Of a stretch of 45,512 nt of DNA, positions 1,796 through 45,040 are shown one piece after another. The stretch spans positions 1-45,512 of IMG/VR virus record IMGVR_UViG_3300048835_000760. The stretch is one strand, 5' to 3'. How positions within the stretch are numbered: the first letter of the stretch is position 1; each line of letters starts with the position of its first letter. Source of the stretch: a virus. The translations under genes were made by a program, and so were the position numbers. Under the pieces are notes generated by a model. That model did not search any database. It saw only the letters and a program-made list of their open reading frames with translations, and was not told the origin of the DNA.

Positions 1796-1831
1796 TAAAT
1801 GTAAAGGAGTGAAACTCTTGAAATTGTGACA
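1796..1831 (-). promoter_or_regulatory. Late promoter copy (lysis operon)
   Basis: On the minus strand the site reads TGTCACA (1831-1825), exactly 21 bases, then TACATTTA (1803-1796), which is close to the Bacteroidota -7 box TAnnTTTG. Transcription would start about 25 bases before the ATG at 1770. It belongs to the five-member late promoter family described in the findings. Confidence 0.65.
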
Positions 1832-1832
1832 G

Positions 1833-2396
1833 CTATTCTGAAGCTTCCACTTTATTGCTGATGGGATTGTACTTCACCTTAGCCTTGAAATACCCGCTCT
1901 CCAGCTTACGGTAGTAGGCACGGCGAATGCGGAGAATGTTGTAGTTGAATTCCTCAAGATCGTATTTTTCAAAAAATTCAATTATTGCGGAATCTAAACT
2001 GCCGTCACCCTCGGCTTGATGGCGCGCGTGGATGAAAAACATACTGGCAGTTTCAAATTCTTCCTCTAAATATTCATTGATTAGCTTCTGGGCGCCGTCC
2101 GGAAGAAACAAAAAACCATTGCGCCCGTCTTCATATTTATAGGAAGTGCGCATAAATGCTTCAATTACTGGCACTTCCTGTACCATTAAAAAAGTTTGTA
2201 AGGAATTGTCATATAGGACTTTTTTTTGTGATTTCTCTAACAAAATCCTGATCCATCGCCCTAAGGAAGTTTTATTGGTAACCTTTGCCGCTTTAACTGG
2301 CTTGCCCTCATAGGTGCAATCCACACACTTCAGTTTCTTGAATAGAAACGGAACCAGGTGCGGTTTTATATGTATGGGAATTAAGGTTTGGGGCAT
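1833..2396 (-). CDS. Conserved-looking phage protein of unknown function
   Basis: The protein has 187 residues and no recognised family. The N-terminus is hydrophobic and basic (IPIHIKPHLVPFLFKKL), and the second half is strongly acidic and helical, ending in a basic YNILRIRRAYYRK segment. There is no signal peptide or membrane helix. It lies 6 bases downstream of another unknown gene and is the last gene before the lysis promoter, so it belongs to the tail-fibre end of the late region. A tail-fibre accessory or DNA-binding role cannot be told apart. Confidence 0.6.
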   Translation of the reverse strand: MPQTLIPIHIKPHLVPFLFKKLKCVDCTYEGKPVKAAKVTNKTSLGRWIRILLEKSQKKVLYDNSLQTFLMVQEVPVIEAFMRTSYKYEDGRNGFLFLPDGAQKLINEYLEEEFETASMFFIHARHQAEGDGSLDSAIIEFFEKYDLEEFNYNILRIRRAYYRKLESGYFKAKVKYNPISNKVEASE

Positions 2397-2402
2397 TGGT
2401 TT

Positions 2403-2876
2403 TTATTCTATTTCAAATTCAAAATTCTCTTTAAGAGGCAAACCCTCGCAGGTAATTACATTCTTTATCCAGTCTATTGCTAATTGCTTAAATGGCGTAT
2501 CTGCCAATGTCAATCCAGTCCAGATACTTTCAAGATTAAAATATTGAATAGCACGTTGATAGTCTGGCTGCCCCCATTCCTTTATCCTTTCTTCATCATA
2601 CGTTCCGCCACGGGTAAGGAATGCCAAAATTTCTTCCTCTTCATCATTTTCATTTAGAATGGTGGTGGGAATGTATGTTTGGTCAAAAACCTTTTGGTAG
2701 CTTTCAATTTCCACCACATTGCCCTCCAGCTCATACGCAAACTGAAACTTTGCAATAAGCATAGGCTTATGTGGAATAGGCTCTGCCGAACGTGCAACTA
2801 TATAAGGCGAAGGAAAAAAGCCTCGGTCTGCCCGTGGGCTTTTGTAGTTTTCGGTTTTTGATGTGAATTTTATCAT
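2403..2876 (-). CDS. Unknown protein next to receptor-binding genes
   Basis: This 157-residue acidic protein has no signal peptide, membrane segment or catalytic motif that I can recognise. It follows the lectin-like fibre gene by 10 bases and precedes another unknown gene by 6, so all are likely on one transcript. The position suggests a distal tail component or fibre chaperone, which is inference only. Confidence 0.6.
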   Translation of the reverse strand: MIKFTSKTENYKSPRADRGFFPSPYIVARSAEPIPHKPMLIAKFQFAYELEGNVVEIESYQKVFDQTYIPTTILNENDEEEEILAFLTRGGTYDEERIKEWGQPDYQRAIQYFNLESIWTGLTLADTPFKQLAIDWIKNVITCEGLPLKENFEFEIE

Positions 2877-2886
2877 AGCTTTTTCT

Positions 2887-3753
2887 TTATGAAATTCCGT
2901 AATAGGTTTTAATATTATTAAGAACTGTTGTTTGGTCTGTTGGGCTTAATGCTGTGTTATTTATTAGTAGCTCAGCAATCTTTCCACCGAAGTAAAGATT
3001 TCCGTTCAACTGCCTACCTATTGAAATATAGGTGTTTAATGAAAAAGTATCTGCACTTGTAATACTTCCTATCAAGGTGTTTGTTTCATCATAAAAGCTC
3101 ACGGTTGTACCAATCTTTTTTAAAATAAAAACACGCTTTGTTGAAGCTGGCTGTGCGGAAGAAAAATTGATTAGATTGGTAGTGCCATCAGGACTATAAT
3201 TTACTGCATAATGTGGAGCGCTGGCATCGGTATCAGTATACAAAACAACTCTTTCGGCATCAAGGCCACTAGTTGTTTCTCTTTCCTCGAAAATACCTTT
3301 TGCCGTTGCTCCTGATTGGCTTTCAAAAACAAGAAAAACGGTACAGTCTTTATCTGTTATTGGGGTACCTGTGGATGAAAAAAGATAGTCATTAGAACCA
3401 TCAAATTGAGAATATACTTTTCCATTTACTTTAATAACAGTACCCGCATCAACTATTTTAGGCTCATTCGATAATCCCAACCTAGACATATTTAAACTCC
3501 CTATCTGGTCATAAACCGTACTTACATATGCATTTCCTCCAAGTGAAACACCAACCATTGTAGATTCGTTTATTTCGTTATTCGCAAACCCTATGGGAAA
3601 TGTAGTTGAAGTTCCTATTCTTAAAAGAATTGCATTACCCGTGTATGCACTTCTAAGTTTACGGGAAAAGGAATAGGCGTGCGTAAATCCTACAACTAAA
3701 TCTGTTATCAGATCTTCCTCAATCAATCTCCTCATTTCATCAAAATCACCCAT
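2887..3753 (-). CDS. Tail fibre/receptor-binding protein with LamG-like lectin fold
   Basis: The product has 288 residues from the ATG at 3753, which follows the previous stop as TAAGGATG. Residues about 20-60 contain an AYSFSRKLRSAYTG segment resembling the arabinofuranosidase-B-like module found in phage tail proteins. The middle and C-terminal part (from about QFDGSNDYLF to the end) matches the beta-rich concanavalin A/laminin-G-like fold used for glycan binding. Together these indicate a distal tail protein that contacts host surface polysaccharide. It forms a block with the fibre gene upstream. An upstream in-frame ATG would overlap the previous gene by 46 bases and is less likely. Confidence 0.7.
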   Translation of the reverse strand: MGDFDEMRRLIEEDLITDLVVGFTHAYSFSRKLRSAYTGNAILLRIGTSTTFPIGFANNEINESTMVGVSLGGNAYVSTVYDQIGSLNMSRLGLSNEPKIVDAGTVIKVNGKVYSQFDGSNDYLFSSTGTPITDKDCTVFLVFESQSGATAKGIFEERETTSGLDAERVVLYTDTDASAPHYAVNYSPDGTTNLINFSSAQPASTKRVFILKKIGTTVSFYDETNTLIGSITSADTFSLNTYISIGRQLNGNLYFGGKIAELLINNTALSPTDQTTVLNNIKTYYGIS

Positions 3754-3755
3754 CC

Positions 3756-4802: not shown

Positions 4803-4805
4803 TTT

Positions 4806-5306: not shown

Positions 5307-5311
5307 TACTG

Positions 5312-5381: not shown

Positions 5382-5406
5382 TAACTGCAAAAAACCCGAA
5401 AAATTC

Positions 5407-5720: not shown

Positions 5721-5736
5721 TAATACCTATCACGAA

Positions 5737-14337: not shown

Positions 14338-14904
14338 CTACACTATTGTAAGGTTGCGGCTTATCAAGGCCACTTCCTGTTTTGTCTGTACACCAAGCAC
14401 CGCATACAATTGTTTTTTTAGTAAATGATATGTGCCCAGGGGCAGATCCATTTTTTCTGCGATAACTTCATTGGTGTCGGTTCCGGAAAGCAAGCGCATA
14501 AGCTTTACGAGTTGTAATGTTAAGCGCGTGCCATTGATAATGGGCATCTTGCATAGGATTCCCTCTGCAGAACAGCCTCCGCGGTGGGGGCACGGGTGAA
14601 ATTCGCCGTCCTGCAGTTGGTTATCCTTGATGTCGGCCTCGTAGTCAAGACCTCCAAAGCGGCACCCTGCGAATTGGTGGACTTGCTTCATTGAGGAGCC
14701 AGGGTGCCATTGTTCTAATATTTTTTTTGATTCGGGTTCGGCTTCCATTTTTTCCAATAAAATAGCTATAAGAGCAAATGGAGCTTGGGAAAATGGCTTG
14801 ACTTGGCCATCGCTAAGAATTTTAAGACCTTGATCTGGATGATTGAATATTTCAACATCAGGTCCGAATAAGCCAGGGTGAAAATTGTTTGTGGTTGTTT
14901 CCAT
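14338..14904 (-). CDS. LuxR-type HTH regulator with Cys cluster; late activator candidate
   Basis: The 188-residue protein ends in a LuxR/GerE-type helix-turn-helix (LTLQLVKLMRLLSGTDTNEV, then a recognition helix around PLGTYHLLKKQLYAVLG). The middle has a putative metal-binding cluster (AGCRFGG, CPHRGGCSAEGILC). This architecture appears in Bacteroidota prophages next to the immunity region. It is the second gene of the leftward early transcript and is followed by a terminator. It is the most likely activator of the TGTCACA late promoters, which is inference. DNA binding itself is well supported by the motif. Confidence 0.7.
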   Translation of the reverse strand: METTTNNFHPGLFGPDVEIFNHPDQGLKILSDGQVKPFSQAPFALIAILLEKMEAEPESKKILEQWHPGSSMKQVHQFAGCRFGGLDYEADIKDNQLQDGEFHPCPHRGGCSAEGILCKMPIINGTRLTLQLVKLMRLLSGTDTNEVIAEKMDLPLGTYHLLKKQLYAVLGVQTKQEVALISRNLTIV

Positions 14905-15348: not shown

Positions 15349-15672
15349 ATGGGAGTAGGGAAAAAGTTGAAGTTTCTTATCAAGCAAAAAGGGATATCGC
15401 AACGCCAATTTGCTGATAACATTGAGGAAAACATAACTCAAGTAAACAAAGTGCTCAACGAGGAGCGAACACCTAATTATGAATTTTTAGTAAAGGCACT
15501 TACCTATTTCGGCGAAGTAGATTTGAATTGGCTGCTGCGCGATGACTATGCCCTGGATGCTCCCATTCCAAAAGTGGATGAAAATAGAGCTGCATATTCT
15601 GTAGATGTCATACAGGACATCACTGAAATTGAAGAAATAATTACTCGTTTGAAGCAAAAAGTGTCACAATAA
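15349..15672 (+). CDS. XRE-family HTH repressor (CI-like)
   Basis: The 107-residue protein starts with a classic Cro/CI-type HTH (LKFLIKQKGISQRQFADNI, then NITQVNKVLNEERTPNYEF) over residues 6-45, and ends in a charged helix that may dimerise. It has no S24 peptidase domain, so RecA-stimulated self-cleavage is unlikely and induction must work another way. It diverges from the Cro-like gene across two palindromic operators and precedes the integrase on the same strand, as expected for a lysogeny module. Confidence 0.8.
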   Translation: MGVGKKLKFLIKQKGISQRQFADNIEENITQVNKVLNEERTPNYEFLVKALTYFGEVDLNWLLRDDYALDAPIPKVDENRAAYSVDVIQDITEIEEIITRLKQKVSQ

Positions 15673-15692
15673 TGACACACGATTATTATAAA

Positions 15693-21055: not shown

Positions 21056-21460
21056 TTAGATTATATAGGCAGGTATATTTGCTTTGTCTTGCATCACAAT
21101 AGCATCTATAGTGACTAAAGTCCCTGGAGTGAGCAGCTGCCATATTTCAATGAAAATAGTTTCGTTGTAAACAATTTGTGCTTGATCATCAAATAGAACC
21201 GTGCCGGATGCGCCAAGCTTTTGACCCAGTGCTTCTTGGCAAAAAACAAAAATGCTATCTTGGTCTGTGCCGAATGATATTACCGTTATTTCTTCTGGCG
21301 TATCGCCTTGAATAATTCTTGCCGACATTCCTGTTAAAAAGAAATGGTCCGCAATTGTAGGTCCGTCAAACTCCTCAATTAAATATTCGTGGAGTAGATT
21401 GCACGCAATATTGGCGTTACCATCTGCAAACACTTGCTCGTCTGTATATACTGTGTACAT
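21056..21460 (-). CDS. Small tail-associated protein
   Basis: The 134-residue acidic, beta-rich protein is unrecognised. Its ATG at 21460 shares a base with the stop of the tape measure gene (TAATG), so translation is coupled. A position directly after the tape measure gene suggests a distal-tail-type or tail completion protein. Confidence 0.5.
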   Translation of the reverse strand: MYTVYTDEQVFADGNANIACNLLHEYLIEEFDGPTIADHFFLTGMSARIIQGDTPEEITVISFGTDQDSIFVFCQEALGQKLGASGTVLFDDQAQIVYNETIFIEIWQLLTPGTLVTIDAIVMQDKANIPAYII

Positions 21461-24400
21461 TATATCTGGCTTTTTTGTTTGTATTTTTTTAATTTATCTA
21501 GGTCATCCTGCAATTTTTTGGCATTTTCCATATCGCGAACCAACCAAGCATTAAGTCCATTTTCCTTCAGCTCCCTAAGCAAATCTGAATTCTCAGAAAT
21601 TACAGCCATTAAAGCTATATAATCTGCTTGTGGCACTTGAGCGCTTCCTGCTCTTTCTACATCTGGTGAAGTATATCCCGATTCATAACCACGTACACGA
21701 CGAATTTCACGGCCAACCGAGCTAATCACTTCGGGATTCATTCTTTTAAGGTCAGGATTTGATATAATTAATTCCGGCATTTCACCTACCAGGATGGTAG
21801 GATCCTTAACCAATCCACTTTTAGGTTTACCTCCATAACGTGCATTAAATATTTTACCGTCCTGCTCTCTCTCTACAGGGAAAGTGTCTGGATAATATCC
21901 ACTTTCATACCCACGTACGGGTTTATTTTTTGCAATTATGCCGACTTGAATTGTTCCTAAAGTAGCAGCCAAAGCTCCCATAATTAAACCTACTGGAAGA
22001 AAAGGGGTAGAGTTAAATCCATTTAAAGTAGCCATAGCTGCAGTTGCAATAGCATTGGCAAGTTGCATTTTCCAAGCTCGTTTTGCCTGTTTGTATTCAA
22101 GGTCTGCCTTACGCTTATCCATATCGGCTTCAAGTGCCGCAATTCCTTGATCATATTGACGCTGATTAATCAATTTAGAATCCAAATTGTTTTTCAGCTT
22201 GGTTCTTTCTTTGTTTTGATTCCGCTCAAACTGCCTTAAATGACGATTCTCGTTATCATTTACATATTGGTAATAGGTTGACCAAGCATTTAAAAAACCT
22301 TGAACAGCTTGCCCAGCAGCATTTATTTTAGATTCTACAGTATCTAAATTTGTAAATGTGTCAACCCAATCTTGTGCAGAAAAACCGAAGATGTCTATTT
22401 TTCCCCCGGTACCAAGATCCAATCCATCTGTTTCTCCAGAGCCTGATAGCTTTGCTTTTTCAGCAGCTACTTCTGCAAGCTTCAGCTTGATATCATCGAG
22501 CATCTTTTCCATTTCGGCTTTTTGCTCTGGAGTAAGTATCTCCAAATCAAAACCACCGAAACTACCCTCATCCATTATGTAGTTGAATTGACGTATCAAT
22601 TCTTCCAAATGCTTGGCTTCTGCCTCTAACTCTTCTTTTTGGTGGAGTTCCCGCAGTTCTTTTTGCGCTTCCTTATTGCCTGCATAGGCAGCCAGTTCTT
22701 CAGCGTATTTGGTTTGGCGTAGGGTTTTGGAACGTTGATAGTTTTCCTCTTCAGCTTTAAATTGTTCGCTTAGGCCTTTCATAATGAAAGTACCGCGATC
22801 TTTTTCATAAAGTTCCTGTTCCAAACGCAGCTGCGCACGGATGGCTCCGTTTTTACGTATTTGGTCTTCAGTCAACTTTCCTTCAGTAACCAACTGCTCG
22901 GAAAGCTTTTGCATTTTTATATCATGCTGCGTGTCATAAACTGCCAGCTCTGCTAGAAATGCATCGTCAATAAGTTGGGCTTTTAGAAGAAGGTTTTGGC
23001 GCAGGATTTCAATACTCTCATCCTTTTCTGCTTTTTGTTTTGGATCTTTTCCTGGCGGCGTGAATACACGCACCAATTCCCACTTACCATTTTTAAAGAT
23101 GAAGGTCTGGCCACCCATTTCTTTGGTGTCACCTTCTTTGGGTCCAGTTTCCTCCGGAGAAATAAGATTGGTTGCGTCCTGCGGCGTGAAATTCAATTCA
23201 TTTAATTTAGCAACTAAATCTGCCTCACGGTTTAATTGAATTTCTATTTCCTTATTGACCTGGTTATAGGCTGAACGTGCTTGATAGAGTTCTTTATAGC
23301 CGTCCAAACGCTCAAGAAGTTTTTGCTTTTCTACTTGAGAAAGCACTTCTGAATTTTTTATTTCGGCAATATCATCTGCATATTTACTCTCAAAGAATTT
23401 TTTACGGCTTTCAAACTCCTTTAAAGCATCCCTTTGGCGAATGGCAAGAACTTTTTGTTCCTCCTTTACTCCAACTAGACGTGATGCAAGTGTGGATGCT
23501 TCTTCATCTGCAGCCAGACGCTTCATTTTAATTTGCTCCCTTACGGCATCTGTATTTAAAATATAAGCTCCGGTCTCTTTATCGATAGCCATTACAGATT
23601 CGCCCAAACGATCCTTTAAGCGAAGAGTAATTATATCCAATTCTTCTTTTGCCTCGGCCGTGGGTTCTACTCCATCAGCCGTGAGCTCTTCATATCGATC
23701 CAAAAGATTTTGACTCTCATTTGCTAGTTTCCTGTTCGCTTTTGCTGACTCGTAAGTAACTTGGATCTCCTTATCAATTTCCTCGTTTACATCTTTGATA
23801 GCACCTATTAACCGGCCAAAAATGGTAACCAAACCAGTAAGTAGGTTTGATACAGCCTTACCTCCCAACATTCCCTGAAATGCCTTGGAAACTTTCTCCA
23901 TTGTAGCAGCCAGGTTGTTGTTTTTTACGTTGTATTCATTTATAAGTGAAGTGCCATCCTTCATAGATTGGTTGGAAAGCTCCAGGCGGGAACGGAACAA
24001 CTGTTGGTTGTTCGCCATTGCTCCCAAAACTTTATTGGCTCCATCTGCAGATACTCCTAAATAATCTAATGTTTGTGCCGTTTCAGTAGCGTTCATTCCA
24101 CGCAATCCGTCAGCAAACTTGATCATAAATTCTAAAGGATTCTCATTTATGAGTGCTTCAACCTGTTCGGTTGTCAAACCCATTACATCAGCAAATTTTG
24201 AAGCTTCAGTGGATGCCTGGTTCAATACAATTGAATAAGCGCGAGCAGCAATTTCTGCCTGTATCCCACTTTCTTCAAATGCTGCTCCTAAAGCCAATGC
24301 ATCAGCAATACTAGGTTTCAAAGCATCAGACATAGAACCCAAACGCGTGGCAAATTCGGCAATATTGTTTTCAGTGGCCACACCATCTGCACCCAGATCA

Positions 24401-25284
24401 TTTATTGCGGAACCAATAGCGTTATAAGCTTCCCCTACTTTTAGGTCCTTGGTTTCTTTAAACAATAATTTCAGTTTACCAAGCTTGGATGCAGTTTCTT
24501 CAGCTCCTCCCGGGAACGAATCTGACAATGCCACCACGGCCTTATCCATAATGGCAACGAAATCTGCAATTTCATCTTTAGCGATACCGATTCGGCCACC
24601 TTCTTCAGCAATTTTTAGAAGGTCAATTCTTGAAGTCCTGGTCTGTAGAATACCGAAAGAAGCGGATAGATTATCCACTTCCTTAGCCGTTAATCCGGTT
24701 GTTTTTTGAACATCACTTTGGGCATCGGCCAGTTTGCCATTGTAATCAATGATTTTTTGCATTGACAGGGCTACCCCTGTTAAGGTTGCTATTATGGAAG
24801 CCCCTAGTGCAGCGTATTTGTTAAAACTTCCCGCAACTTTAGACATTGTACTCTCAGTGGCCGCAGATCCTCGTCGCAATTCTGCCATACGGGCATTCAC
24901 ACGCTGTAAATCGCTTTCCAGTCTTTTATATTCCGCTGAGCCTGGAATCATATTGATAAGCTGGAACCGTAAAAGCATCGCCTGCTTTTTTAATTGGTTC
25001 ATGGTAAGACCGGTGATACCAATCTGGTCGCGAAGGCCTTTCATTTTGGTGTTGTTCTCACCAATTTTTACGGAATTCGCTTTTATTTCTGCAGATAGTT
25101 TTTTGTATTCTTCGCTGCCACGTTTGCCAGCGGCTTGCAGTTTTGCGCGCTCGGCTCTTAAATCTTTGTTGGAAGCGGTAAGCTCGCGAGTAGATTTTTC
25201 AAGATCATAAAGTTCTTTTTGCGCATCATTGCCATTGACGATGATGGTAAACCGCATTTCTTCATCAACTATTCGCTTTGCCAT
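21460..25284 (-). CDS. Tail tape measure protein
   Basis: The 1274-residue protein sets tail length and is ejected with the DNA. The first 150 residues are coiled coil; a hydrophobic segment follows (GASIIATLTGVAL), then a TP901-like Gly/Ala-rich core, a long helical region and a second hydrophobic cluster (ATAAMATLNGF to LGTIQVGII). A GYESGY motif occurs twice near the C-terminus, the second about 75 residues after the first, along with PTILVGEMPELII. By the usual 0.15 nm per residue, the tail would be about 190 nm long, which implies a siphovirus. The gene has its own late promoter just after a terminator. Confidence 0.9.
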   Translation of the reverse strand: MAKRIVDEEMRFTIIVNGNDAQKELYDLEKSTRELTASNKDLRAERAKLQAAGKRGSEEYKKLSAEIKANSVKIGENNTKMKGLRDQIGITGLTMNQLKKQAMLLRFQLINMIPGSAEYKRLESDLQRVNARMAELRRGSAATESTMSKVAGSFNKYAALGASIIATLTGVALSMQKIIDYNGKLADAQSDVQKTTGLTAKEVDNLSASFGILQTRTSRIDLLKIAEEGGRIGIAKDEIADFVAIMDKAVVALSDSFPGGAEETASKLGKLKLLFKETKDLKVGEAYNAIGSAINDLGADGVATENNIAEFATRLGSMSDALKPSIADALALGAAFEESGIQAEIAARAYSIVLNQASTEASKFADVMGLTTEQVEALINENPLEFMIKFADGLRGMNATETAQTLDYLGVSADGANKVLGAMANNQQLFRSRLELSNQSMKDGTSLINEYNVKNNNLAATMEKVSKAFQGMLGGKAVSNLLTGLVTIFGRLIGAIKDVNEEIDKEIQVTYESAKANRKLANESQNLLDRYEELTADGVEPTAEAKEELDIITLRLKDRLGESVMAIDKETGAYILNTDAVREQIKMKRLAADEEASTLASRLVGVKEEQKVLAIRQRDALKEFESRKKFFESKYADDIAEIKNSEVLSQVEKQKLLERLDGYKELYQARSAYNQVNKEIEIQLNREADLVAKLNELNFTPQDATNLISPEETGPKEGDTKEMGGQTFIFKNGKWELVRVFTPPGKDPKQKAEKDESIEILRQNLLLKAQLIDDAFLAELAVYDTQHDIKMQKLSEQLVTEGKLTEDQIRKNGAIRAQLRLEQELYEKDRGTFIMKGLSEQFKAEEENYQRSKTLRQTKYAEELAAYAGNKEAQKELRELHQKEELEAEAKHLEELIRQFNYIMDEGSFGGFDLEILTPEQKAEMEKMLDDIKLKLAEVAAEKAKLSGSGETDGLDLGTGGKIDIFGFSAQDWVDTFTNLDTVESKINAAGQAVQGFLNAWSTYYQYVNDNENRHLRQFERNQNKERTKLKNNLDSKLINQRQYDQGIAALEADMDKRKADLEYKQAKRAWKMQLANAIATAAMATLNGFNSTPFLPVGLIMGALAATLGTIQVGIIAKNKPVRGYESGYYPDTFPVEREQDGKIFNARYGGKPKSGLVKDPTILVGEMPELIISNPDLKRMNPEVISSVGREIRRVRGYESGYTSPDVERAGSAQVPQADYIALMAVISENSDLLRELKENGLNAWLVRDMENAKKLQDDLDKLKKYKQKSQI

Positions 25285-25302: not shown

Positions 25303-25338
25303 CAATGTTAGAAAATGGGGGCGGGAAAAGTTGTGACA
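25303..25338 (-). promoter_or_regulatory. Late promoter copy (tape measure operon)
   Basis: The minus strand reads TGTCACA (25338-25332), 21 bases, then TAACATTG (25310-25303). The upstream half is continuous with the T-tract of the terminator at 25347-25372. The start of transcription would be 10-15 bases before the tape measure ATG at 25284. Confidence 0.65.
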
Positions 25339-29382: not shown

Positions 29383-30360
29383 TTATCCTACGAAGCCATC
29401 ATCGGTTCTAAAACCGAACTTGTCTTCATCGGGGCAATTGGTTGTTTGAGTGGTTGGTTCTGGATCCGGTTCCTTAACGGCGGCTTCGATATCCAAAAGC
29501 ACTTGTGCTGTGTCTTCCTTGAATTTTTGCTCCAACTGATCAAGAACATTATTTACTATTGGCATTCTGCCTTTAATCGTAGCCCTATCACCACGCACAG
29601 CTTGAGATATACTGTCTGGAAACAATGTTACCTGCAGACGTATAACTCCCCAAGCAAGTGCAGCGTACACGGTTGCTTCCTGAATCATTAAAAGCAGGGG
29701 TTCTTCATCTGCAGATAAAGCGGAACCATCCTTTCTTTTCGCCTTCAGCGCATCATAGGCAGTTTGTCCAATTCTAGGAATGATCAAACGTTTTTCCGCC
29801 ATGGCGATGCCAGGAGAAAGTTTTTCCAATAAGTATCGCGAATTGATTGTATAGAATTGGTTGAACTCTTTAACAGTGCGTACAAATAGGCGATGTGTGG
29901 CTTTGTAATTATCTGAAGCCTTCCAGGTATTTGAACTTTCATCCAATAGGTTTATGAGATTGTCCATAGCACGATGGGAGCGGCGCTCCAATTCGTCGTT
30001 GCTAGCAACAATCATATATTCAAATGGCGTTTTGCTATCCTCACTGGTTAGCATCTTACGGCCGTTGGTACCGTGCTGAAGGTCATTGCTAGGCGCAAAA
30101 TAGCGGTAGGCGAGATTGGCAATGGCGTTTTGTGCAAACTGGAGGATCTGCCCAGCTGTGGTTTCGTAATCAAAATTGCTCTCATAGGTAGCTACAATTT
30201 CCAAATAAGTAGTGTTGCCGAGGAAGCTGGCAATCTCTTGAGTGGCATTCACAAGATCAGGCTTTATTTTCTGAAATTTGAAATCGGCATCCACGAACCC
30301 AAGGGCATCCTTGAACTCTTTGCTAAAATCGGCTCCTGGTTTGTTAAATAGTAGTTTCAT
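29383..30360 (-). CDS. Head-tail connector candidate (DUF6712-like)
   Basis: The 325-residue helical protein contains KRLIIPRIGQTAYDALKAK and a following ATVYAALAWGVIRL segment, which resemble the DUF6712 family found directly after the portal in Bacteroidota phages. The start codon abuts the portal stop. A role as neck or connector component is inferred. The acidic C-terminal tail is poorly structured. Confidence 0.55.
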   Translation of the reverse strand: MKLLFNKPGADFSKEFKDALGFVDADFKFQKIKPDLVNATQEIASFLGNTTYLEIVATYESNFDYETTAGQILQFAQNAIANLAYRYFAPSNDLQHGTNGRKMLTSEDSKTPFEYMIVASNDELERRSHRAMDNLINLLDESSNTWKASDNYKATHRLFVRTVKEFNQFYTINSRYLLEKLSPGIAMAEKRLIIPRIGQTAYDALKAKRKDGSALSADEEPLLLMIQEATVYAALAWGVIRLQVTLFPDSISQAVRGDRATIKGRMPIVNNVLDQLEQKFKEDTAQVLLDIEAAVKEPDPEPTTQTTNCPDEDKFGFRTDDGFVG

Positions 30361-31736
30361 TATACTTTGTTTTTAACGCGATCTGTACTTGTTGTGTCTT
30401 CTTCCCTTTGTGGGGCTATGTGATAGAAGCCTACTTTCACTTCCTTTTCTGGCCAGTTGGCTTTAATGGCGTAGTTCAAAGGTTTGCATACTATCATTTC
30501 AGGTATATCGATACCGGTGATTAGATAGTTTTTAAGAGCGTAGAGCTGCTCACTTCCGGAATCTGACTTTCCACTTTCACCTGCTCCGCCAAGGGCAGGG
30601 TGCATACCAACGCCTGCAGCTACCGAACGGTTGGCTTCTTTGCTTATTTCGAGATTGGAAGTCACCAAATCTTTTAAGTTGCCCGGTATTTCCTTTATCT
30701 CCCAACCGTGCTCTAGAATGTTATTTCCATCTACTTCAACATACTTAACAGTGTGCCAAAACTTCCCAGTGTTATCTGCACCGGATAAGGCTGTAGTTAC
30801 TTTACGCAGATATTTTGTTCGCTCAGTGAGGAGCATTGAAGCTTCATAATTTTTTTTATCCCGTATGCATTTTTCCTTTAACTCTTCTTCCATTTTCTCC
30901 CAGAACTTTGCAGGGGAAATAACGTGATACTTTACATTGATACTGTTTTTGGCAAATGCTTTTAATATCAATGGTACAGCAGTGGATCTTCTAAGCCACT
31001 CTAATGAACCGTATAGGTCAGGAACCGCATAATAATCACTGCAGAAGCTGTACATATTGCTGTAGTAGTATGCGTTTTTATGCTTGAATGGATCGTTATA
31101 GTCGAACAGTGGATACACAACGTGTTCGGTACTGCTTTGATAGTGGCGATTGAAGTCTGGCGTATATATGCAATGGGTAGCATCCTTGCCGGGATCTGAT
31201 GATAGTTTCGCTAGTCGGTGATTGTTTGCGTTGCGATGCTCTAGTTTTGCGATCTTGGGAGCTCTTCCTAATCGTGCTGATCTATCCTGATAAAACATAG
31301 TACCTACACACTCTATATAATGGAAGTCCACACAGGCTTTCATTAGGTATTTTTCATAATCCCAACTCTCAAGCCATTTTGTTACTTCAGCATCTTTTGT
31401 CCATTTCTTTACAAGATCTCCTTTCTCATCAAAGTCCTCTATATATAGCTTAGGACCCTTACCCCATAGTAATTGAGATTTCTTTTTTAAGATACCTGGA
31501 GCAATGTAGTTTTCTTGGACTACATTTCTAATTGTCTGAGGCAGATCATCGGTACTTCCGTATGGAAATACAGTGTATTGTTGGAGTTGATAGTCCTGAT
31601 TGGTCCAGTCTAACGACGTACCCTCAGTACGTTTATTATCTAACTCCCTTGGATTCTCAACAGCTTCAAACGTAAATGAAGCCTCACTGGTTGTAACTAA
31701 GCCGCCATTCTCGCGGAACATTTCTACTTCGAACAT
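30360..31736 (-). CDS. Portal protein
   Basis: The 458-residue protein would form the dodecameric ring through which DNA enters and leaves the capsid. The N-terminal half includes NVVQENYIAPGILKKKSQLLWG and later KLEHRNANNHRLAKL, consistent with a phage portal wing and stem. A central helix (LKDLVTSNLEISKEANRSVA) is followed by GVGMHPALGG, typical of the clip and tunnel-loop region. It follows the small gene at the start of the portal operon and precedes the connector candidate. Confidence 0.75.
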   Translation of the reverse strand: MFEVEMFRENGGLVTTSEASFTFEAVENPRELDNKRTEGTSLDWTNQDYQLQQYTVFPYGSTDDLPQTIRNVVQENYIAPGILKKKSQLLWGKGPKLYIEDFDEKGDLVKKWTKDAEVTKWLESWDYEKYLMKACVDFHYIECVGTMFYQDRSARLGRAPKIAKLEHRNANNHRLAKLSSDPGKDATHCIYTPDFNRHYQSSTEHVVYPLFDYNDPFKHKNAYYYSNMYSFCSDYYAVPDLYGSLEWLRRSTAVPLILKAFAKNSINVKYHVISPAKFWEKMEEELKEKCIRDKKNYEASMLLTERTKYLRKVTTALSGADNTGKFWHTVKYVEVDGNNILEHGWEIKEIPGNLKDLVTSNLEISKEANRSVAAGVGMHPALGGAGESGKSDSGSEQLYALKNYLITGIDIPEMIVCKPLNYAIKANWPEKEVKVGFYHIAPQREEDTTSTDRVKNKV

Positions 31737-32008
31737 TTGATATCGTATTGGTTAAACGAGGTGAGTAACGGAAAATAGAACCAACGGTTTTCGTTTGTTT
31801 CTAAATCAACATAACCGATTAAGCTACGTGATTTAATACCGTGTTCTGATGAAAGGCCTACACGAAGCTTAGCCTTCTTTATTTCCTTGAACCCATCACT
31901 TTGTTGGGTAGATAGGTTGCATCCAAGAAAGGAGAATGAGAATGGTATGTTGTCGTCTGACAACTTACGCATTCGCTTTAAGGCTTCGTAATGTGCAATT
32001 GCATTCAT
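31724..32008 (-). CDS. Small unknown protein upstream of portal
   Basis: The product has 94 residues from ATG 32008, or 82 from ATG 31972. The late promoter at 32013-32048 would start transcription close to 32008, so the mRNA is either almost leaderless or the internal ATG is used. The protein is of mixed structure and overlaps the portal gene by 13 bases. The function is unknown; a head-completion or portal-assembly role is possible from position. Confidence 0.5.
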   Translation of the reverse strand: MNAIAHYEALKRMRKLSDDNIPFSFSFLGCNLSTQQSDGFKEIKKAKLRVGLSSEHGIKSRSLIGYVDLETNENRWFYFPLLTSFNQYDIKCSK

Positions 32009-32012: not shown

Positions 32013-32048
32013 CAATTATATAACATAATGGTTGGGATGATTGTGACA
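32013..32048 (-). promoter_or_regulatory. Late promoter copy (portal operon)
   Basis: The minus strand reads TGTCACA (32048-32042), 21 bases, then TATAATTG (32020-32013). It is the promoter for the portal/connector operon and lies beside an AGTGGTT repeat cluster. Confidence 0.65.
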
Positions 32049-32113: not shown

Positions 32114-32218
32114 GGGCGTGCAAGCCCTTTATTTATGGGCATTTGTCATATATCTAAGAAAAAAGCCTTTATGCAATTGCAATAACGCCATTGAGCGGGA
32201 CGGTATCTGCGATGCTTC

Positions 32219-35682: not shown

Positions 35683-37365
35683 CTACATCCCATCCAGCGC
35701 AGTAATAATAACGCTGCGTTTTCTTTTGGCCATATTTGCCCATTTTTTACGGTACATCAAATACTTAAAGGTATCACCCATATTTGTAGAGTTCATTGGC
35801 AGTTGGAAAAGCGGTAAACCTTCGCTGCTTTTATTTTTATAGATCTGCACACTTCCTTTTTTGTCCCGCTTCTGAAGAATTTTTGTAAGCTCCAGCGACG
35901 ATTTCAATTCACGGCATTGGTAAACGTCTATCAATAATTTCGGCAAGCCTTCCATTTGCCCGGAAAGAACATTTTTCATAAAATAGTATTCCTCACTTTG
36001 GTAAATGGTAGCCTGGTCACGGCTCATTAAATTCACCGTCCAGCCGGTACGGTTTCCGGATGAATCTATTTCAATACAATCCTTCAGTTCTGCAGCCCAC
36101 GAACGGCCACTACTTTCGTATTGGTTCCCGCTCCTGTCGTAATACATATTCAAAACCTTCCGTTTGTGGGGCTTAAAAAACTTTATAAAATGATCACCCA
36201 TTTCGCGCGAGCTCTCCGGCGCCAGTTTATAAATATTCTTCAGACATCTAAATTCCTTGCCGCGCTCCTGGGCAATTACCATACTCAGCATTCGCCCAAA
36301 ATCGATACCGCAATCCAATTCAGCATTGGGATCCAGGTACCGCAAAATATTACAGTTCGCTTCTTCGTGAAGCCCAAGGGAATGATCATAATTTTCATTG
36401 ATACCATCCCTATAAAAATGGTCCTCACTCAATCCGGAATAAAACTTCTCGCCATCTTCCACGCCGCCCTTTATGGAAAGAACGCTTTGCTTGAATTCTT
36501 CCCATCCCAAAGTGTTGAGCAGATCCTTCAACACTTCCGGAGTAAGCACGTCTATATTGGTAAAGGAAGATGCCACAATAAAATAAGAAAGGTTTTTCCG
36601 AACCCGCAACCAGTCAGCGTATAGCCGTGCCCTGGCTCTAATAAGCTTCCTCACTTCCGCTTTATTCTTATTTTTTAAGGCGTTGGCGAGTTTCATTTCA
36701 TTCTGATAGTAAAAGTAGCCGCAGTAATAGGCCACTTTTGCCTGCTCCAAATTCATATTTTTCCGAAGCTCCAGCACCCAAGGATCATCGCCTTTTCCCA
36801 AGTTGGGTAAATCGGTAGTAAAACAGGTACCGCGGTAGTATGCGGAATGCTGGTACATATTGAAACCACGCAATGCCGGCAGGATGATATCCACTTTTGA
36901 CTTGCCAATGTATTTTACTTCATCCGCCCCAATGTATTGGTACGAGTTCCCCGCAAGTCCGGAAACCTCATTTGCGGAACCAATGATGATGGCAGCGCCG
37001 TCGCGATGATAAATTGTTTTTTTCCAGTTTTCTACAGGAATGTAGGGCTTTGCGAAATACTTTGGCGGCGGCTCCCCCTTTACGTAGTCAATGCCATACT
37101 TCCAATCGCGAAACTCTCTCCAGCCGGTTTCCAAACCTGGTACCAAGTTTGTCCTGGCATTTTCATACGTATTACAAAAAAACATCTGCAGACTCCGGGG
37201 CATTTCAATTAAAGCTTCCTGAAAGCGCTCGGCGTGGATTGCGGTCGTTTTACTCGTTCCACGCCCGGCAATTACCTGCAGATCCTTTGGAGCGATGTAC
37301 GCAATAGCCTGGCTAAGCCAATTGGCATAGCGAACTTCTACAAGCGGATCGTTTTTTGTTATCAT
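35683..37365 (-). CDS. terL: Terminase large subunit
   Basis: The 560-residue motor cuts and packages phage DNA into the procapsid. The ATPase has Walker A GRGTSKT at residues 34-40 and Walker B YIGADE ending at 149. The RNase H-like nuclease domain starts with the acidic strand DCGIDFGR (D355), and other acidic residues follow later. It starts four bases inside the gene before it, so the packaging genes are translationally coupled. It ends the packaging operon and is convergent with the accessory island. Confidence 0.9.
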   Translation of the reverse strand: MITKNDPLVEVRYANWLSQAIAYIAPKDLQVIAGRGTSKTTAIHAERFQEALIEMPRSLQMFFCNTYENARTNLVPGLETGWREFRDWKYGIDYVKGEPPPKYFAKPYIPVENWKKTIYHRDGAAIIIGSANEVSGLAGNSYQYIGADEVKYIGKSKVDIILPALRGFNMYQHSAYYRGTCFTTDLPNLGKGDDPWVLELRKNMNLEQAKVAYYCGYFYYQNEMKLANALKNKNKAEVRKLIRARARLYADWLRVRKNLSYFIVASSFTNIDVLTPEVLKDLLNTLGWEEFKQSVLSIKGGVEDGEKFYSGLSEDHFYRDGINENYDHSLGLHEEANCNILRYLDPNAELDCGIDFGRMLSMVIAQERGKEFRCLKNIYKLAPESSREMGDHFIKFFKPHKRKVLNMYYDRSGNQYESSGRSWAAELKDCIEIDSSGNRTGWTVNLMSRDQATIYQSEEYYFMKNVLSGQMEGLPKLLIDVYQCRELKSSLELTKILQKRDKKGSVQIYKNKSSEGLPLFQLPMNSTNMGDTFKYLMYRKKWANMAKRKRSVIITALDGM

Positions 37366-38741: not shown

Positions 38742-39050
38742 TTAATCAAGAATTTCCCAATCTGAAGCAAATGAATCTGCAACAGTTGGACTATAACTTG
38801 TAATTGAATTACTTAAACCAACCAACGCAAGTTGATCAGAATAATAGATTGCATCAATTTGCTCTTCCTCAAATGTTTTTAAGAAAAAATCTTTTACCGT
38901 TTGCGGCAAGGATTGCATTTTCGGAACTACTTCTTTTGGAATTTCAGAAGGAACTTGACGAAAAATAAACCGTTTGTCCTGATGCCAGCTTGAGCGTCGA
39001 ACACGTTTTCCATCATTTAATGCTTGAATTACTTTTTTAAATTTTGCCAT
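38742..39050 (-). CDS. tad2: Tad2-like (DUF2829) anti-Thoeris protein
   Basis: The 102-residue protein begins with a helix and the motif DGKRVRRSSWHQDKRFIF, has KMQSLPQTVKDFF and IYYSDQLALV in the middle, and ends PTVADSFASDWEIL. This is the DUF2829 pattern, and the family includes Tad2, which blocks the Thoeris defence by sequestering its cyclic ADP-ribose signal. It lies between the PLD-like and DUF3307 genes on the packaging transcript. Whether it retains ligand binding is not shown by sequence; the match is by motif. Confidence 0.65.
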   Translation of the reverse strand: MAKFKKVIQALNDGKRVRRSSWHQDKRFIFRQVPSEIPKEVVPKMQSLPQTVKDFFLKTFEEEQIDAIYYSDQLALVGLSNSITSYSPTVADSFASDWEILD

Positions 39051-39101: not shown

Positions 39102-39752
39102 TTAGGAAACTTTTGTTCCAGTTTTGGAAATTATTCCATTCAAAGCTTTATACCGGATATCCACTTCAGTAAAAAGTTTCATCCTAAAATCAAACAATCC
39201 CTTGCAGTTGGCAAAGGCGTATTGTTCGTAGTATGCGTTTTCGCTCCAATTGCCGGACCCTTCAATTACAAAATGTCCTTTCTCGGTTTCCAGTAAACAT
39301 ACCTTGGCGTGTACCCAGGCGAACAACACATTTAGGTTCGGATTCTCTTTGGCGCTCGCCGATAGCAGATCTGCTGTTATCGGGTTTCTCTTCAACATCG
39401 TATCGCTCACTAAAAGCGTTATTTGGTCCACAAACCCTTGCCTGTGCAAATCAATTAATGCTGTAATTACCCTTTTATTGATGCTGTACGTAGTGGCGTA
39501 CAGATGCTTTATGGTGGTCTGCTTGCAGATCCACGGAATAAAAGTGAAGGCATTAAACGAATTGTCACTCTGCAGGAAGAAAAACTCTTCCTTTTCCGGC
39601 AGTCTTTTTATGTCTGCCTCCAGCTTGGCAACTTTTTGGTAATGCGCAGCCAGGTATTTTGAAACAAAGCTTCCTGTTTTGGAATCACCGACATTCCCCG
39701 AATCGGCGCCCTCCACAGGAAGATTGAATAATCTATTTCTTGTCGGCTTCAT
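39102..39752 (-). CDS. Phospholipase D-like domain protein
   Basis: The 216-residue protein has one HxK motif (VHAKV, H148 and K150) followed by EGSGNWSENAYYEQ at 164-177, typical of phage PLD-like proteins with a single active-site half. Such proteins dimerise to form one site. The gene lies in the packaging operon, overlapping the coiled-coil gene upstream by 20 bases. Possible roles are nuclease or phosphotransfer steps in maturation or counter-defence. The product is not secreted. Confidence 0.7.
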   Translation of the reverse strand: MKPTRNRLFNLPVEGADSGNVGDSKTGSFVSKYLAAHYQKVAKLEADIKRLPEKEEFFFLQSDNSFNAFTFIPWICKQTTIKHLYATTYSINKRVITALIDLHRQGFVDQITLLVSDTMLKRNPITADLLSASAKENPNLNVLFAWVHAKVCLLETEKGHFVIEGSGNWSENAYYEQYAFANCKGLFDFRMKLFTEVDIRYKALNGIISKTGTKVS

Positions 39753-40947
39753 TCAATCGGGCATCGATTAAATTAAGCTCATCTTGCCATGCTTTGATTT
39801 TAGCCTCGGCTTTTTCTTTTTTCGCGGCTTCCATTTTCTCCAGCTTTGGCGTTTCACGCGAAATATAAGAGCGAAGATTGCCTTGGCGTTTCATAGCCTC
39901 TTTAGTAGAATAGCCATCCACTTGCTTTTGGAGCATATCATCTGCAAATATGGGATGATTGCCAAGGATCTCTTTATGCTCTTGGTAGTAGTTCAACTCA
40001 TCGTAGATAAGTTGGTTCAGCTCAAAATTTTCAACGGAAGTTTTACCTAATTCAAAAAGGCCATCCGTTTCACCTGCAGCTTTTTTTCTTTGAATTTCAT
40101 TAAATGCAGCGTGATACGCTTTTAAAGCTGTGAATTTATCGGCCACAAGAATTTTGAATTTGTCTGGGCAATCCTTTTCATTTAAGAAAGGAAATTCCTC
40201 GCGCAGTTTTTTCTTTTCCTGAGCTTCGTCTCCAGGTTCGGGATTTTGATTTTCTGAAGCTTCGGTTTGTGAAGTTTCTTTGGAATCCTCAGAATTCTTA
40301 GTTTTTTCAGAACCTTCAGTTTTTTTTGTTTCAAGGCCCTCTAAGGCTTCGCTTTCCTCTGTTTCAACTTCCATTGATTTAAGCAAAGCATATTTAGCTT
40401 CCTGCAAATTCAATACTGCAGAATTTTTTGCTTGAGCAATTTTGTTCTTTTGAGTTTTCTCAATCAAGGCTTTAAGATCAGCGCTCTTTTTTGACTCTGG
40501 AGTAATTTCTTGCTCAGCTAACCAAGCAATCATTTCCTTGTTTCCTGGCAATCCTTTTGCGAATTTTGGAAGATCTGCAGGTAGCAGCTCGTCCAATTTT
40601 GAAAACTCGGTAAGATCTACAGCTTCTTTTTGTAAATCTTCTAAAGAAGTATTTACAAAATCAATTGCCAGCAATCTTTGCTCTCCAGTTAAAATTTCTT
40701 GAGCAACTTCTTCCTCTTTTTTCTTCGGAACATACGCGCGCACTTCAGCATCGGTAATACCGTAGGTTTGCTTTACGTCATATTTCAATGTTTCCAGATT
40801 TGCCTTACTAAAGCCGCTGGCATTGTAATATTTTGCCAGTGATGGACCGTGATGGGGATGTTTTATAAATAGCTGAAGCAATTCATTAAATTGCTTTTGT
40901 GGAGCTTCATTGCTATTAAGCGCCTCAAGTACTTTCTTTTTTTCCAT
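39733..40947 (-). CDS. Coiled-coil protein at head of packaging operon
   Basis: The 404-residue protein is mostly helical and acidic. An N-terminal segment LFIKHPHHGPSLAKYYNASG is followed by long coiled coils and a Ser/Glu/Thr-rich linker near residues 205-245. It is the first gene after a late promoter and the first of the packaging operon. It could be an assembly or packaging factor. No family is recognised by motif. Confidence 0.55.
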   Translation of the reverse strand: MEKKKVLEALNSNEAPQKQFNELLQLFIKHPHHGPSLAKYYNASGFSKANLETLKYDVKQTYGITDAEVRAYVPKKKEEEVAQEILTGEQRLLAIDFVNTSLEDLQKEAVDLTEFSKLDELLPADLPKFAKGLPGNKEMIAWLAEQEITPESKKSADLKALIEKTQKNKIAQAKNSAVLNLQEAKYALLKSMEVETEESEALEGLETKKTEGSEKTKNSEDSKETSQTEASENQNPEPGDEAQEKKKLREEFPFLNEKDCPDKFKILVADKFTALKAYHAAFNEIQRKKAAGETDGLFELGKTSVENFELNQLIYDELNYYQEHKEILGNHPIFADDMLQKQVDGYSTKEAMKRQGNLRSYISRETPKLEKMEAAKKEKAEAKIKAWQDELNLIDARLNEADKK

Positions 40948-40978
40948 GGTGTTTGGTATTAATTACTAATTAGTGAAT

Positions 40979-41014
40979 CAAATATGCAATTGCATTTTTG
41001 CAATTGCTGTGACA
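40979..41014 (-). promoter_or_regulatory. Late promoter copy (packaging operon)
   Basis: The minus strand reads TGTCACA (41014-41008), 21 bases, then CATATTTG (40986-40979). The upstream half continues the T-tract of the terminator at 41019-41048, the same arrangement as before the tape measure gene. Confidence 0.65.
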
Positions 41015-41018
41015 ACAA

Positions 41019-41048: not shown

Positions 41049-41078
41049 CAGCTTTAAAACTATTGCTATGAAAACAAA

Positions 41079-41897: not shown

Positions 41898-41924
41898 AAT
41901 TTCTGACTTTTTAGATTAAACTTA

Positions 41925-44075
41925 TTAAGCGATGGTTCTCGCTACTTCTTCCCACACGCCGTCAATTTTTGTAAGCGTGATGTTATCTGCACCGTTGGCA
42001 AGGATCGCTCCTGCGCCAACGTTTATATTACCCGCTACATCTTGTAGGGTCAGGGCACCACCGGCACCACCATTGATCACAATCTCTTGGCCTTCTACAC
42101 CGCCGATTATTCCCTCAAGGGTATCAACACCACCGGTATAATTGAATTCGTAACCAAGGTCAGCATCTAAAGTAGCTGTGCTGAAATCTACATCTGCATC
42201 AGGAACAACTGGAGGCGAAGTGGTTCGTTTCACTTCAGTGAAAGTTGTTGCTGTAGTTGCACGAAGTGTCAAAATACCGCCGCTATTTAAAGAAAAATCA
42301 GCATTGCCGGCAAGGGTGATGTTGCCATCATCCACAACCTTCACGCCTGCGCCTACAGCTGTATTACCTTGTATCTTGATTATTTGCCCTTCATAGGCAC
42401 CATTGATGGTTTCAATGTTGGTAGCATAATCATTGGTAATGGTAATGTTGCTGTAGAATTCATTGATATTGATTTCTCCAGTTCCATAATCGTACAGACG
42501 CACAAAGAAGTTTTCGTTGAAAATTGGCATTCCATTGGTCCATACAGTTTGCACCTTGAAAGCTGCAGGATCTCCGTCTTTAACTTTGGTACCAATGTGG
42601 CGAACACGTACACCGAATTTATAATCGGCAAAAATGTACATATCGCGCTTCAATGATTCCATATGGTACATTGATTTCTCTGAAGGAATGTTTTCCAAAA
42701 TCTCAATGTTGTCATCATAGGTGATAAACATAAAGTCGCTTCCGGAAAGTTCAGACAATGGGCAAAGCTTCACATTGGGGAAGTTTTCAATCTCCATCAA
42801 TTCCTGCCCGGTGTAATTGTTGTCGTGCCCAAAAAGCACACGCTTGCGCTCTACGTGACGACGGATCCACTCCGGAGAAAGATACAGGATAAGGTTAGCG
42901 CTGTTTATTTCTTCCAGCGGTACGTTTTTCTCAAGCAGATTTTTTACGTAATCAACAATATTGCTATTTGATGGCGCGCCAATCTGGGCTGATTTGAATT
43001 TTTTCTCAAGGAAATAAGCTCTCCAAAGTTTGATTAAAATTCCATCACTACGGTGAACAGCCAAACCTGGTATTTGAGTTGAGTCAGGCGTAGGAACATA
43101 TACCCCTTTCACTGCCACAATTCTATCTTCTTGACGTGCACGCTTATCAAGCTCTACCAAAAGGAATTTTACAAAGCTCCATTTGTAAGCCTGTGAGCCT
43201 TCCTTATTGTACTGGTGCAACCAAGAAGTAAGTAAGGTTTGCAACAAATAACCAGCGTGCTCAATATCTACCTGTACAGGATAGATTTTAGCTTCTTCAG
43301 GCTGGATAAGTTGCTTGTTTTTTGGCAACCAGTTTTTCTTTTTTGCCTGGGTAACTTCTGCAGTAACAATATTACCATCGGCAATTCTATCTACTACATT
43401 GGTACGTATGGGCCAAAATGAAGGAAGCTTTAGGTAATCGCGATTTAATGATTTTAAATCGGCCTTAACTTCCTTGTAATAAAGGTCGGCATCGTTTTGA
43501 AGTTTTTGAACTTCCAAAGAATCGGCAGCGAAAGTTGGCATTGCCACTTGCTCTCCTTTTGCCATTTGGTTCCAAGGACGGCCCTCGAAAGCATCGTATT
43601 CTTTTTTGGAGCCGAAAAGGTGGCTTTTGGAATGCTGCATATTCTTGTCTGTTTTAGAGTGGATAATTTCCAAAGGAGAATCGCCTTCAGCGGTAGACAA
43701 GAGCTTTTGTAGATTAGCATCCATTTTTTTGGAATAGCTTTCAATCATAGCTTTGATTTTTCCAATCTCAGAGGCATCAATTTTATTATCCTCTTGAGCT
43801 TGTTCCAAATCTTCTTGGCTCATTCCGTGAGCGCGTAACATTTCTTCAATTTCAGTTTTTGCATCAATCAATCGTTGATCATCGTCTGAAATTTTTTCGG
43901 CTGCAGCTGCTAATTCTTTGTTGACCATTTCCAACATTTGGGCAACGTCAACTTTACCTTCCAGCGCATCTTCCAATGCTTTGAGCTGTTCGGGTGTAAA
44001 ATCAGTAGCAGCATCCTTAACAGGTAATTTGCTGATGCCTAGGACGGCCAAAATCAGCGTGATTGCTTTCTTCAT
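41925..44075 (-). CDS. Major capsid protein with N-terminal scaffold-like and C-terminal decoration domains
   Basis: The 716-residue protein has a helical acidic N-terminus (about residues 20-130) that looks like a scaffold or delta domain. An HK97-type capsid core follows, including KSLNRDYLKLPSFWPIRTNV and LIQPEEAKIYPV. Residues 540-716 hold two tandem copies of a beta domain (INGAYEGQIIKIQ and IGGVEGQEIVIN as matching starts), likely exposed on the capsid surface. It follows the S49 protease gene, which would remove the scaffold part. Confidence 0.8.
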   Translation of the reverse strand: MKKAITLILAVLGISKLPVKDAATDFTPEQLKALEDALEGKVDVAQMLEMVNKELAAAAEKISDDDQRLIDAKTEIEEMLRAHGMSQEDLEQAQEDNKIDASEIGKIKAMIESYSKKMDANLQKLLSTAEGDSPLEIIHSKTDKNMQHSKSHLFGSKKEYDAFEGRPWNQMAKGEQVAMPTFAADSLEVQKLQNDADLYYKEVKADLKSLNRDYLKLPSFWPIRTNVVDRIADGNIVTAEVTQAKKKNWLPKNKQLIQPEEAKIYPVQVDIEHAGYLLQTLLTSWLHQYNKEGSQAYKWSFVKFLLVELDKRARQEDRIVAVKGVYVPTPDSTQIPGLAVHRSDGILIKLWRAYFLEKKFKSAQIGAPSNSNIVDYVKNLLEKNVPLEEINSANLILYLSPEWIRRHVERKRVLFGHDNNYTGQELMEIENFPNVKLCPLSELSGSDFMFITYDDNIEILENIPSEKSMYHMESLKRDMYIFADYKFGVRVRHIGTKVKDGDPAAFKVQTVWTNGMPIFNENFFVRLYDYGTGEININEFYSNITITNDYATNIETINGAYEGQIIKIQGNTAVGAGVKVVDDGNITLAGNADFSLNSGGILTLRATTATTFTEVKRTTSPPVVPDADVDFSTATLDADLGYEFNYTGGVDTLEGIIGGVEGQEIVINGGAGGALTLQDVAGNINVGAGAILANGADNITLTKIDGVWEEVARTIA

Positions 44076-44104
44076 TTGTTTTTGAATTTAATTAGTATTT
44101 AGGT

Positions 44105-44986
44105 TTAATAATTACTCATTTCTGCAAGGCCTTGCGCTATCTGCATAGCCTCTTTTAAGGTTCCAATCTTATTGATCATTCCTAACCTTACTGCATCTTC
44201 AGCGCCGAATACCCTTCCTGTCAATACGCCTTCTTCTTCAATTAGATTGGGATGTGCTGCTTTAATAGCTTCTTGGAATTTTTTTGCCATTGGGTTCAAT
44301 TGCATATCACGCAACATTTGGCGGCCTTTTTCCGGATCATCCTTATAGGCTCTCCAAATTTCATTTTTGTGCTGGCTGTGATCTGAATAAACTTCCTCCA
44401 GTATAATCTTTAGATCTTCATAGTATTTACTGAAATCCATCCAGGAACTTAATACACCAATACTTCCGAAACGTGCGGTAATATTATTATCCGCCATTTG
44501 GTAATCTGCCACTGCAGACGGAATCCATTTATGCAGGCTCAAGCTTTGATCCGCCAGTGAAACAATTGGCTTTCTTTTTCTTGAAGCAAATTCTATAAAT
44601 GGATTGATGGCAGAAACGGAACCGCCGGGACCATCTACATAAAGCACAGTAGCTGCTATGTTTTGTTGGTTGTTGGCAAAATCCAATTGCGCAACCACTT
44701 CATCTGCACCAAGAAACCAATACCCACCATATTTCATCATTGGTCCAATAGCCTTTATAAATGCTATTGAGCCTTTGGGTATTTCTGAAATTTCCCGGGG
44801 ATTGATCCTTTCCAATTCCTCATTGAAAAAAGACATCATCAGATGTTCCGGTTTTTCTTCTTTCTTCCGGTCTTCACCTTTGGCCACAACATTGTCAAAA
44901 AAATGACGCAGCTGAACCAAATCGCTAAAATCCATTAGCCATTGTCCCGTGACGATTTCGTGAAGTAATTGAGAGTTGGTATACAT
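44105..44986 (-). CDS. Head maturation protease, S49/SppA-like
   Basis: The 293-residue protein has LYVDGPGGSVSAINPF at about 115-130, and SLSLHKW around residues 148-153 with S150 as the probable nucleophile, then ARFGSIGVL at 171-179. This is the S49 (SppA, phage protein C-like) order. It should cleave the scaffold region of the capsid protein during procapsid maturation. It is the first gene after its late promoter, with the capsid gene following. No signal peptide is present, consistent with an assembly protease. Confidence 0.85.
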   Translation of the reverse strand: MYTNSQLLHEIVTGQWLMDFSDLVQLRHFFDNVVAKGEDRKKEEKPEHLMMSFFNEELERINPREISEIPKGSIAFIKAIGPMMKYGGYWFLGADEVVAQLDFANNQQNIAATVLYVDGPGGSVSAINPFIEFASRKRKPIVSLADQSLSLHKWIPSAVADYQMADNNITARFGSIGVLSSWMDFSKYYEDLKIILEEVYSDHSQHKNEIWRAYKDDPEKGRQMLRDMQLNPMAKKFQEAIKAAHPNLIEEEGVLTGRVFGAEDAVRLGMINKIGTLKEAMQIAQGLAEMSNY

Positions 44987-45004
44987 TTTCTGAATGATTT
45001 ACAC

Positions 45005-45040
45005 CAAACTTCGTAAACGCTCCACACTTCCGCTGTGACA
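45005..45040 (-). promoter_or_regulatory. Late promoter copy (capsid operon)
   Basis: The minus strand reads TGTCACA (45040-45034), 21 bases, then GAAGTTTG (45012-45005). Transcription would begin about 15 bases before the protease ATG at 44986. Confidence 0.65.

Follow-up and report, generated by a model that had tools for sequence, protein, structure and literature searches.

Known late-gene activators and promoters

Several late operons of phages P2 and P4 are under the control of one small phage activator, Ogr/Delta, and Ogr is a zinc-finger protein that acts on a dyad near -55. In phage Mu, the late operons lys, I, P and mom are co-activated by one phage activator (PMC4461284). Bacteroidota sigma-A promoters combine a -33 TTTG with a TAnnTTTG box, which in F. 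psychrophilum lies at -12 to -5 (PMC9723704). ECF41 promoters have the form TGTCACA-n16-CGTC (PMC3426412). In the openly licensed literature we found neither late promoter families nor late-gene control systems described for flavobacterial phages, in agreement with the initial annotation of the DNA analyzed here, which knew of no such family.

The window, which is the whole of the 45.5-kb virus record IMGVR_UViG_3300048835_000760 (45,512 nt), carries five minus-strand TGTCACA heptamers laid out as in a regulon, with one promoter per late operon, a common upstream element and a fixed spacing. As in Mu with its activator C, the late operons of a temperate phage are dispersed and each has a promoter of its own; multiple late operons are shared with P2/P4 as well. 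In its logic the arrangement resembles the late regulons of Mu C and P2 Ogr; no relationship between the proteins can be recognized, and the host promoters are of another type. Mu C works with another host sigma factor and promoter type, whereas the activator here is a candidate, gp042, which has no Mor/C Pfam match. Similarly, Ogr acts on its dyad, whereas each site here has just one element, located at -40 to -34; gp042 has no Ogr match. Both the -7 box and the interval between it and the predicted start match Bacteroidota sigma-A promoters, but the -33 TTTG is replaced by TGTCACA or, in other phages, by another lineage-specific element. The upstream heptamer is identical to that of ECF41 promoters; however, the spacing is 21, the box is of the TAnnTTTG type, CGTC is absent and no sigma region-2 domain was detected in the phage.

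The window phage and its five predicted promoter sites

The integrase and LuxR-like regulator genes of the window suggest that the phage is probably temperate, and we assign it, from its genes, to the Duneviridae-type flavobacterial phages. The closest relatives of its capsid-type protein and tape measure are the Flavobacterium phages laban6-1, 6H, 23T and others, with 38-40% identity of the capsid-type protein to those of the three named; Cellulophaga phage Ingeline is also near this protein. Phages laban6-1, 6H, 23T and Ingeline are classified in the Duneviridae, and the window has both orthologues of the core genes of that family (major capsid/protease, portal, adaptor and others) and its gene order. 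Protein identity between laban6-1 and the window is ~40%, and the window gene order is a circular permutation of that of laban6-1. By promoter, the blocks run 1 (lysis), 5 (protease and capsid), 4 (genes up to the terminase), 3 (portal) and 2 (tape measure). The features are as follows.

1796-1831 (-): predicted late promoter 1, lysis block; TGTCACA 1831-1825, N21, TACATTTA 1803-1796; predicted transcription start ~1791
1339-1770, then 460-1044: first gene of the lysis block, then amidase, behind promoter 1
1833-2396 (-): candidate late activator, 187 aa, phrog_21888, homologue of laban gp042; directly upstream of promoter 1
14338-14904 (-): phrog_10300, a phage regulator of the LuxR/GerE type that contains a Cys cluster; rival activator candidate, probably an early-region regulator
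15662-15668 (+): additional (sixth) TGTCACA outside the family; closes ORF 15349-15672 and lacks a -7 box
25303-25338 (-): predicted late promoter 2, tape-measure block; TGTCACA 25338-25332, N21, TAACATTG 25310-25303; predicted start ~25298
21460-25284: tape measure gene, downstream of promoter 2
32013-32048 (-): predicted late promoter 3, portal block; TGTCACA 32048-32042, N21, TATAATTG 32020-32013; predicted start at ATG 32008, leaderless
ATG 32008, then 30360-31736: 100-aa gene, then portal homologue (named by similarity to the Ingeline portal), downstream of promoter 3
40979-41014 (-): predicted late promoter 4, packaging block; TGTCACA 41014-41008, N21, CATATTTG 40986-40979; predicted start ~40974
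39733-40947 to 35683-37365: genes up to the terminase, downstream of promoter 4
45005-45040 (-): predicted late promoter 5, capsid block; TGTCACA 45040-45034, N21, GAAGTTTG 45012-45005; predicted start ~45000
44105-44986 and 41925-44075: protease and capsid-type protein, downstream of promoter 5

All five minus-strand heptamers named in the initial annotation were located, and each is followed after exactly 21 nt by its 8-nt box. The first ATG lies 26, 19, 5, 32 and 19 nt after the box at promoters 1-5, close to the claim that the sites stand 5-32 bases ahead of the first gene of a late block. For the 100-aa gene of the portal block, the ORF caller placed the start at 32026, inside promoter 3; the true start is likely the in-frame ATG at 32008, giving a leaderless message. 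Promoter 4 is directly preceded by a hairpin with a T-run.

By itself, TGTCACA is not enriched in the window (6 copies compared to 3.5 expected); above chance are the position at late-block starts and the spacing shared by all five minus-strand copies. The -7 box definition that we used has ~0.019 occurrences per position in the window. Less favorable for the promoter reading was a matrix trained on other phages: four of the window sites took ranks 1-4 and site 1 rank 11, and the four scored 24.4, 23.0, 15.9 and 7.3, with random sequence reaching up to 15.9. An E. coli-type sigma-70 scan gave no more matches than shuffled sequence.

Promoter geometry

Since the F. psychrophilum box occupies -12 to -5, the fifth base past the box is taken as +1, and the heptamer therefore falls at -40 to -34, in the place of the -33 TTTG. 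No TTTG was present 17-23 nt ahead of the box at any of the 44 ACA-type sites; F. johnsoniae promoters likewise have no clear -33 motif (PMC7366714). An ATG stands exactly 5 nt after the box, at the predicted +1, in 22 of 55 TGTCCTWTT sites (an element of other lineages, described below) and in 3 of 44 ACA sites. In those 22 it opens a reading frame, as does ATG 32008 at promoter 3. The late mRNAs from such sites are probably leaderless, a class that makes up 5.5% of mapped F. psychrophilum mRNAs (PMC9723704). The recurrence of ATG at the predicted +1 is independent support for the proposed use of the box.

Conservation across the ACA-type phages

The claim that the identical spacing exceeds chance held outside the sample from which it was drawn: the five corresponding junctions of laban6-1 carry the same TGTCACA-N21-box as those of the window. 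About ten further phages and prophages have the element fully or in part. All five sites are kept in the close relatives G001 and G002, in prophages of Flavobacterium denitrificans (G011) and Leeuwenhoekiella marinoflava (G016), and in genomes G004, G445 and G593; four are present in G028, and the count for G003, a partial contig, is 3 of 3. The promoter 1 junction is the same in L003, L004, L006 and L018, and promoter 2 is conserved in L006, L010, L011 and L018.

We then counted boxes in eight ACA-type genomes, using hand-compiled site lists here as for the other counts. All but one of the 39 junction copies are followed at spacer 21 by a TAnnTTTG-type sigma-A box (relaxed definition), and spacers 14-20 and 22-26 gave none. 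The scan proposed in the initial annotation, for many equally good copies inside genes, did not find them: a box at spacer 21 accompanies 1 of 21 non-junction TGTCACA copies, compared to the 38 of 39 at junctions. Conservation at orthologous junctions, fixed spacing, the lack of TTTG (0/44) and the ATGs at the predicted start strongly support the proposal of a late promoter family with the heptamer in place of the -33 TTTG, and we regard the sites as almost certainly such a family.

Different elements at the same junctions in other lineages

Two results go beyond the initial annotation: the different elements of other lineages and a candidate activator. In other lineages, the junctions and the geometry are constant and the upstream element differs. 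Phages 6H and 23T, genome G005 and an Algibacter prophage have TGTCTTAAA at the same junctions, one base nearer the box. Ingeline, a Muricauda prophage and others have TGTCCTYTTRA or TGTCCTTTT in the register of TGTCACA; the sigma-A box stands in this register (spacer 21) at 44 of 49 TGTCCTWTT sites. Small clades have TGTAACA (G133, L133) or TATCACA/TGTTACA (G497, L131). Distant Flavobacterium prophages and Polaribacter phage Leef_1 (Helgolandviridae) each have between three and six TGTCCTWTTT sites that share this geometry, and the stretch of G720 examined has one. In Leef_1 (L158), six TGTCCTTTT sites with -7-like boxes precede late genes, at 469, 1808, 2475, 10520, 30638 and 34590. No element type could be assigned in prophage G480. 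The element type tracks the core phylogeny with two major changes, and the strict motif has two matches in ~33 Mb of host genomes, one of them inside a prophage.

A probable phage-encoded activator and the gp042 family

The initial annotation had offered either an activator or an altered sigma contact to account for the heptamer. The activator appears to fit better, and the altered contact is less apt, because the element varies among lineages on related hosts, the host genomes are nearly devoid of the strict motif and the phage has no sigma region-2 domain. A phage-encoded reader of the element is likely, since 6H and laban6-1, from phages of one host genus, differ in it and the strict motif is near-absent from host genomes. 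On these grounds, the late promoters quite probably depend on a phage activator. Two regulator-like, non-structural proteins occur throughout these phages, the LuxR/GerE-like regulator and gp042.

In the mechanism that we propose, the host polymerase would read the TAnnTTTG-type box at -12 to -5 through the primary sigma factor of Bacteroidota, and a phage-specific element (TGTCACA, at -40 to -34) would take the place of the missing -33 contact. A phage-encoded activator would bind this element and recruit or stabilize polymerase, so that the lysis, capsid, packaging, portal and tail blocks would be co-activated late in infection. The activator would most likely be the orphan protein of 1833-2396 (gp042 family). 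We consider this explanation likely as a whole; for gp042 itself as the activator, we put the chances at about even.

The C-terminus of gp042 has a helical pair, the second helix being basic and aromatic (RIRRAYYRKLE). The gene is present in every sufficiently complete promoter-bearing phage examined, including Leef_1 of another family, and in ACA and TTAAA phages its usual place is immediately 5' of the (first) late promoter. Counting against gp042, in TGTCCTWTT phages the gene can be part of the late region and be preceded by late promoters. The gp042 tree has two changes of element type, the same as the core genes. The second helix has [LIMV][RK]xx[YF]YR in all ACA-type phages and [IM]RxxL/Y[DN]R in TTAAA phages; in TGTCCTWTT phages the first basic residue is mostly absent. 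The best column has Y in all 18 ACA phages and N/D in TTAAA phages. A column scan for residues separating element types was not discriminating, with comparable columns in structural proteins. The covariation of gp042 with the element is suggestive and not independent proof, because the element type follows the core phylogeny.

No relevant Pfam match, and so no recognized DNA-binding domain, was found in 12 gp042 members, which show no membership of the Mu C, P2 Ogr or ArpU-RinA families. PDB searches with the whole protein, by sequence and by fold, gave no match, and the C-terminal domain alone gave no PDB fold relative. The AlphaFold model (mean pLDDT 77) had one significant viral match, a Leef_1 protein (E 1.7e-4), and tblastn placed a gp042-like gene of Leef_1 at 29520-29993; the two matches in the same phage support gp042 homology across two families. 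As a collection query, the gp042 alignment had no conserved stretch, and the Algibacter gp042 as query found no relative.

From these data, the odds seem even that gp042 and its homologues form a new class of late-transcription activator without known structural relative, acting with the Bacteroidota primary sigma via a lineage-specific -40 to -34 element and controlling late regulons, often with leaderless mRNAs, in at least two flavobacterial phage families and many prophages. The proposed late-gene control of flavobacterial phages can be read straight off the sequences of two phage families and of many prophages. The finding names a gene to test, supplies naturally occurring variants of the recognition element at junctions that correspond to one another, and predicts both the exact starts of transcription and leaderless late mRNAs. 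If confirmed, it would explain how these temperate phages hold late genes silent and then switch them on, and would provide orthogonal inducible promoters for Bacteroidota.

Alternative explanations

We evaluated the possibility that the LuxR/GerE-like regulator (14338-14904), bound at TGTCACA beside polymerase, is the activator. This regulator is universal in these phages, occurs in the distant prophages and Leef_1, has an HTH-like C-terminus and is encoded in the early region, where an activator would be expected. However, its helix does not track the element: the helices of 6H and the Algibacter prophage (TGTCTTAAA) resemble those of ACA phages, and in two ACA-type phages, G016 and G497, the regulator is of the subtype otherwise seen in TGTCCTWTT phages. 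Its tree requires five element-type changes, compared to two for gp042, and the grouping of the TGTCCTWTT regulators is rejected (p-AU 0.0016) because those two ACA-type phages carry that subtype. GerE-type dimers also usually need a dyad, and none was seen at the heptamer. We regard this regulator as an unlikely activator, though one to be kept in mind.

An activator could be dispensed with if the heptamer were an alternative -33 read by host sigma-A, making strong unregulated promoters. The heptamer sits at the -33 position and the -7 box is of the ordinary sigma-A type; however, phages of the same host genus differ in the element, with a one-base shift in spacing, host genomes nearly lack the strict motif, and temperate phages must keep late promoters off, all of which make this reading improbable. 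It is still less probable that the heptamer is an operator at which the prophage repressor silences the late promoters. A temperate phage with a repressor-like gene and five dispersed targets would suit an operator, but the element is single and non-dyadic, lies 5' of the -7 box at a rigid spacing and leaves no substitute -33 contact, for which activation is the better fit. A phage or host alternative sigma such as ECF41, whose -35 is TGTCACA, is very improbable, since a CGTC-like box at n15-17 occurs at just 3 of 44 sites and the -7 box at N21 is of the sigma-A type.

Other sequence features

The LuxR-like regulator has a CPHRGGC...C cluster, and its middle part looks cysteine-rich. Its subtype is swapped in the Leeuwenhoekiella prophage and one Flavobacterium prophage (G016, G497). 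A published comment connects LuxR genes of this kind in phages with quorum sensing (PMC8776804).

The window has no Rfam RNA element. At 15662-15679, at the end of ORF 15349-15672 and just before the integrase gene, is an inverted repeat, TGTCACAataaTGACACA, which has no promoter box and is also present in the relative G001. The packaging block includes a protein (38742-39050) whose Pfam domain is Tad2-like (Thoeris anti-defence; E 3e-12). An AGA(G/A)ATATGA-like sequence lies 5' of the portal-block promoter, at ~32130-32150, and is conserved in relatives across element types; it might mark a packaging site or a divergent promoter. The Ingeline record starts 188 nt before the same portal-block gene.
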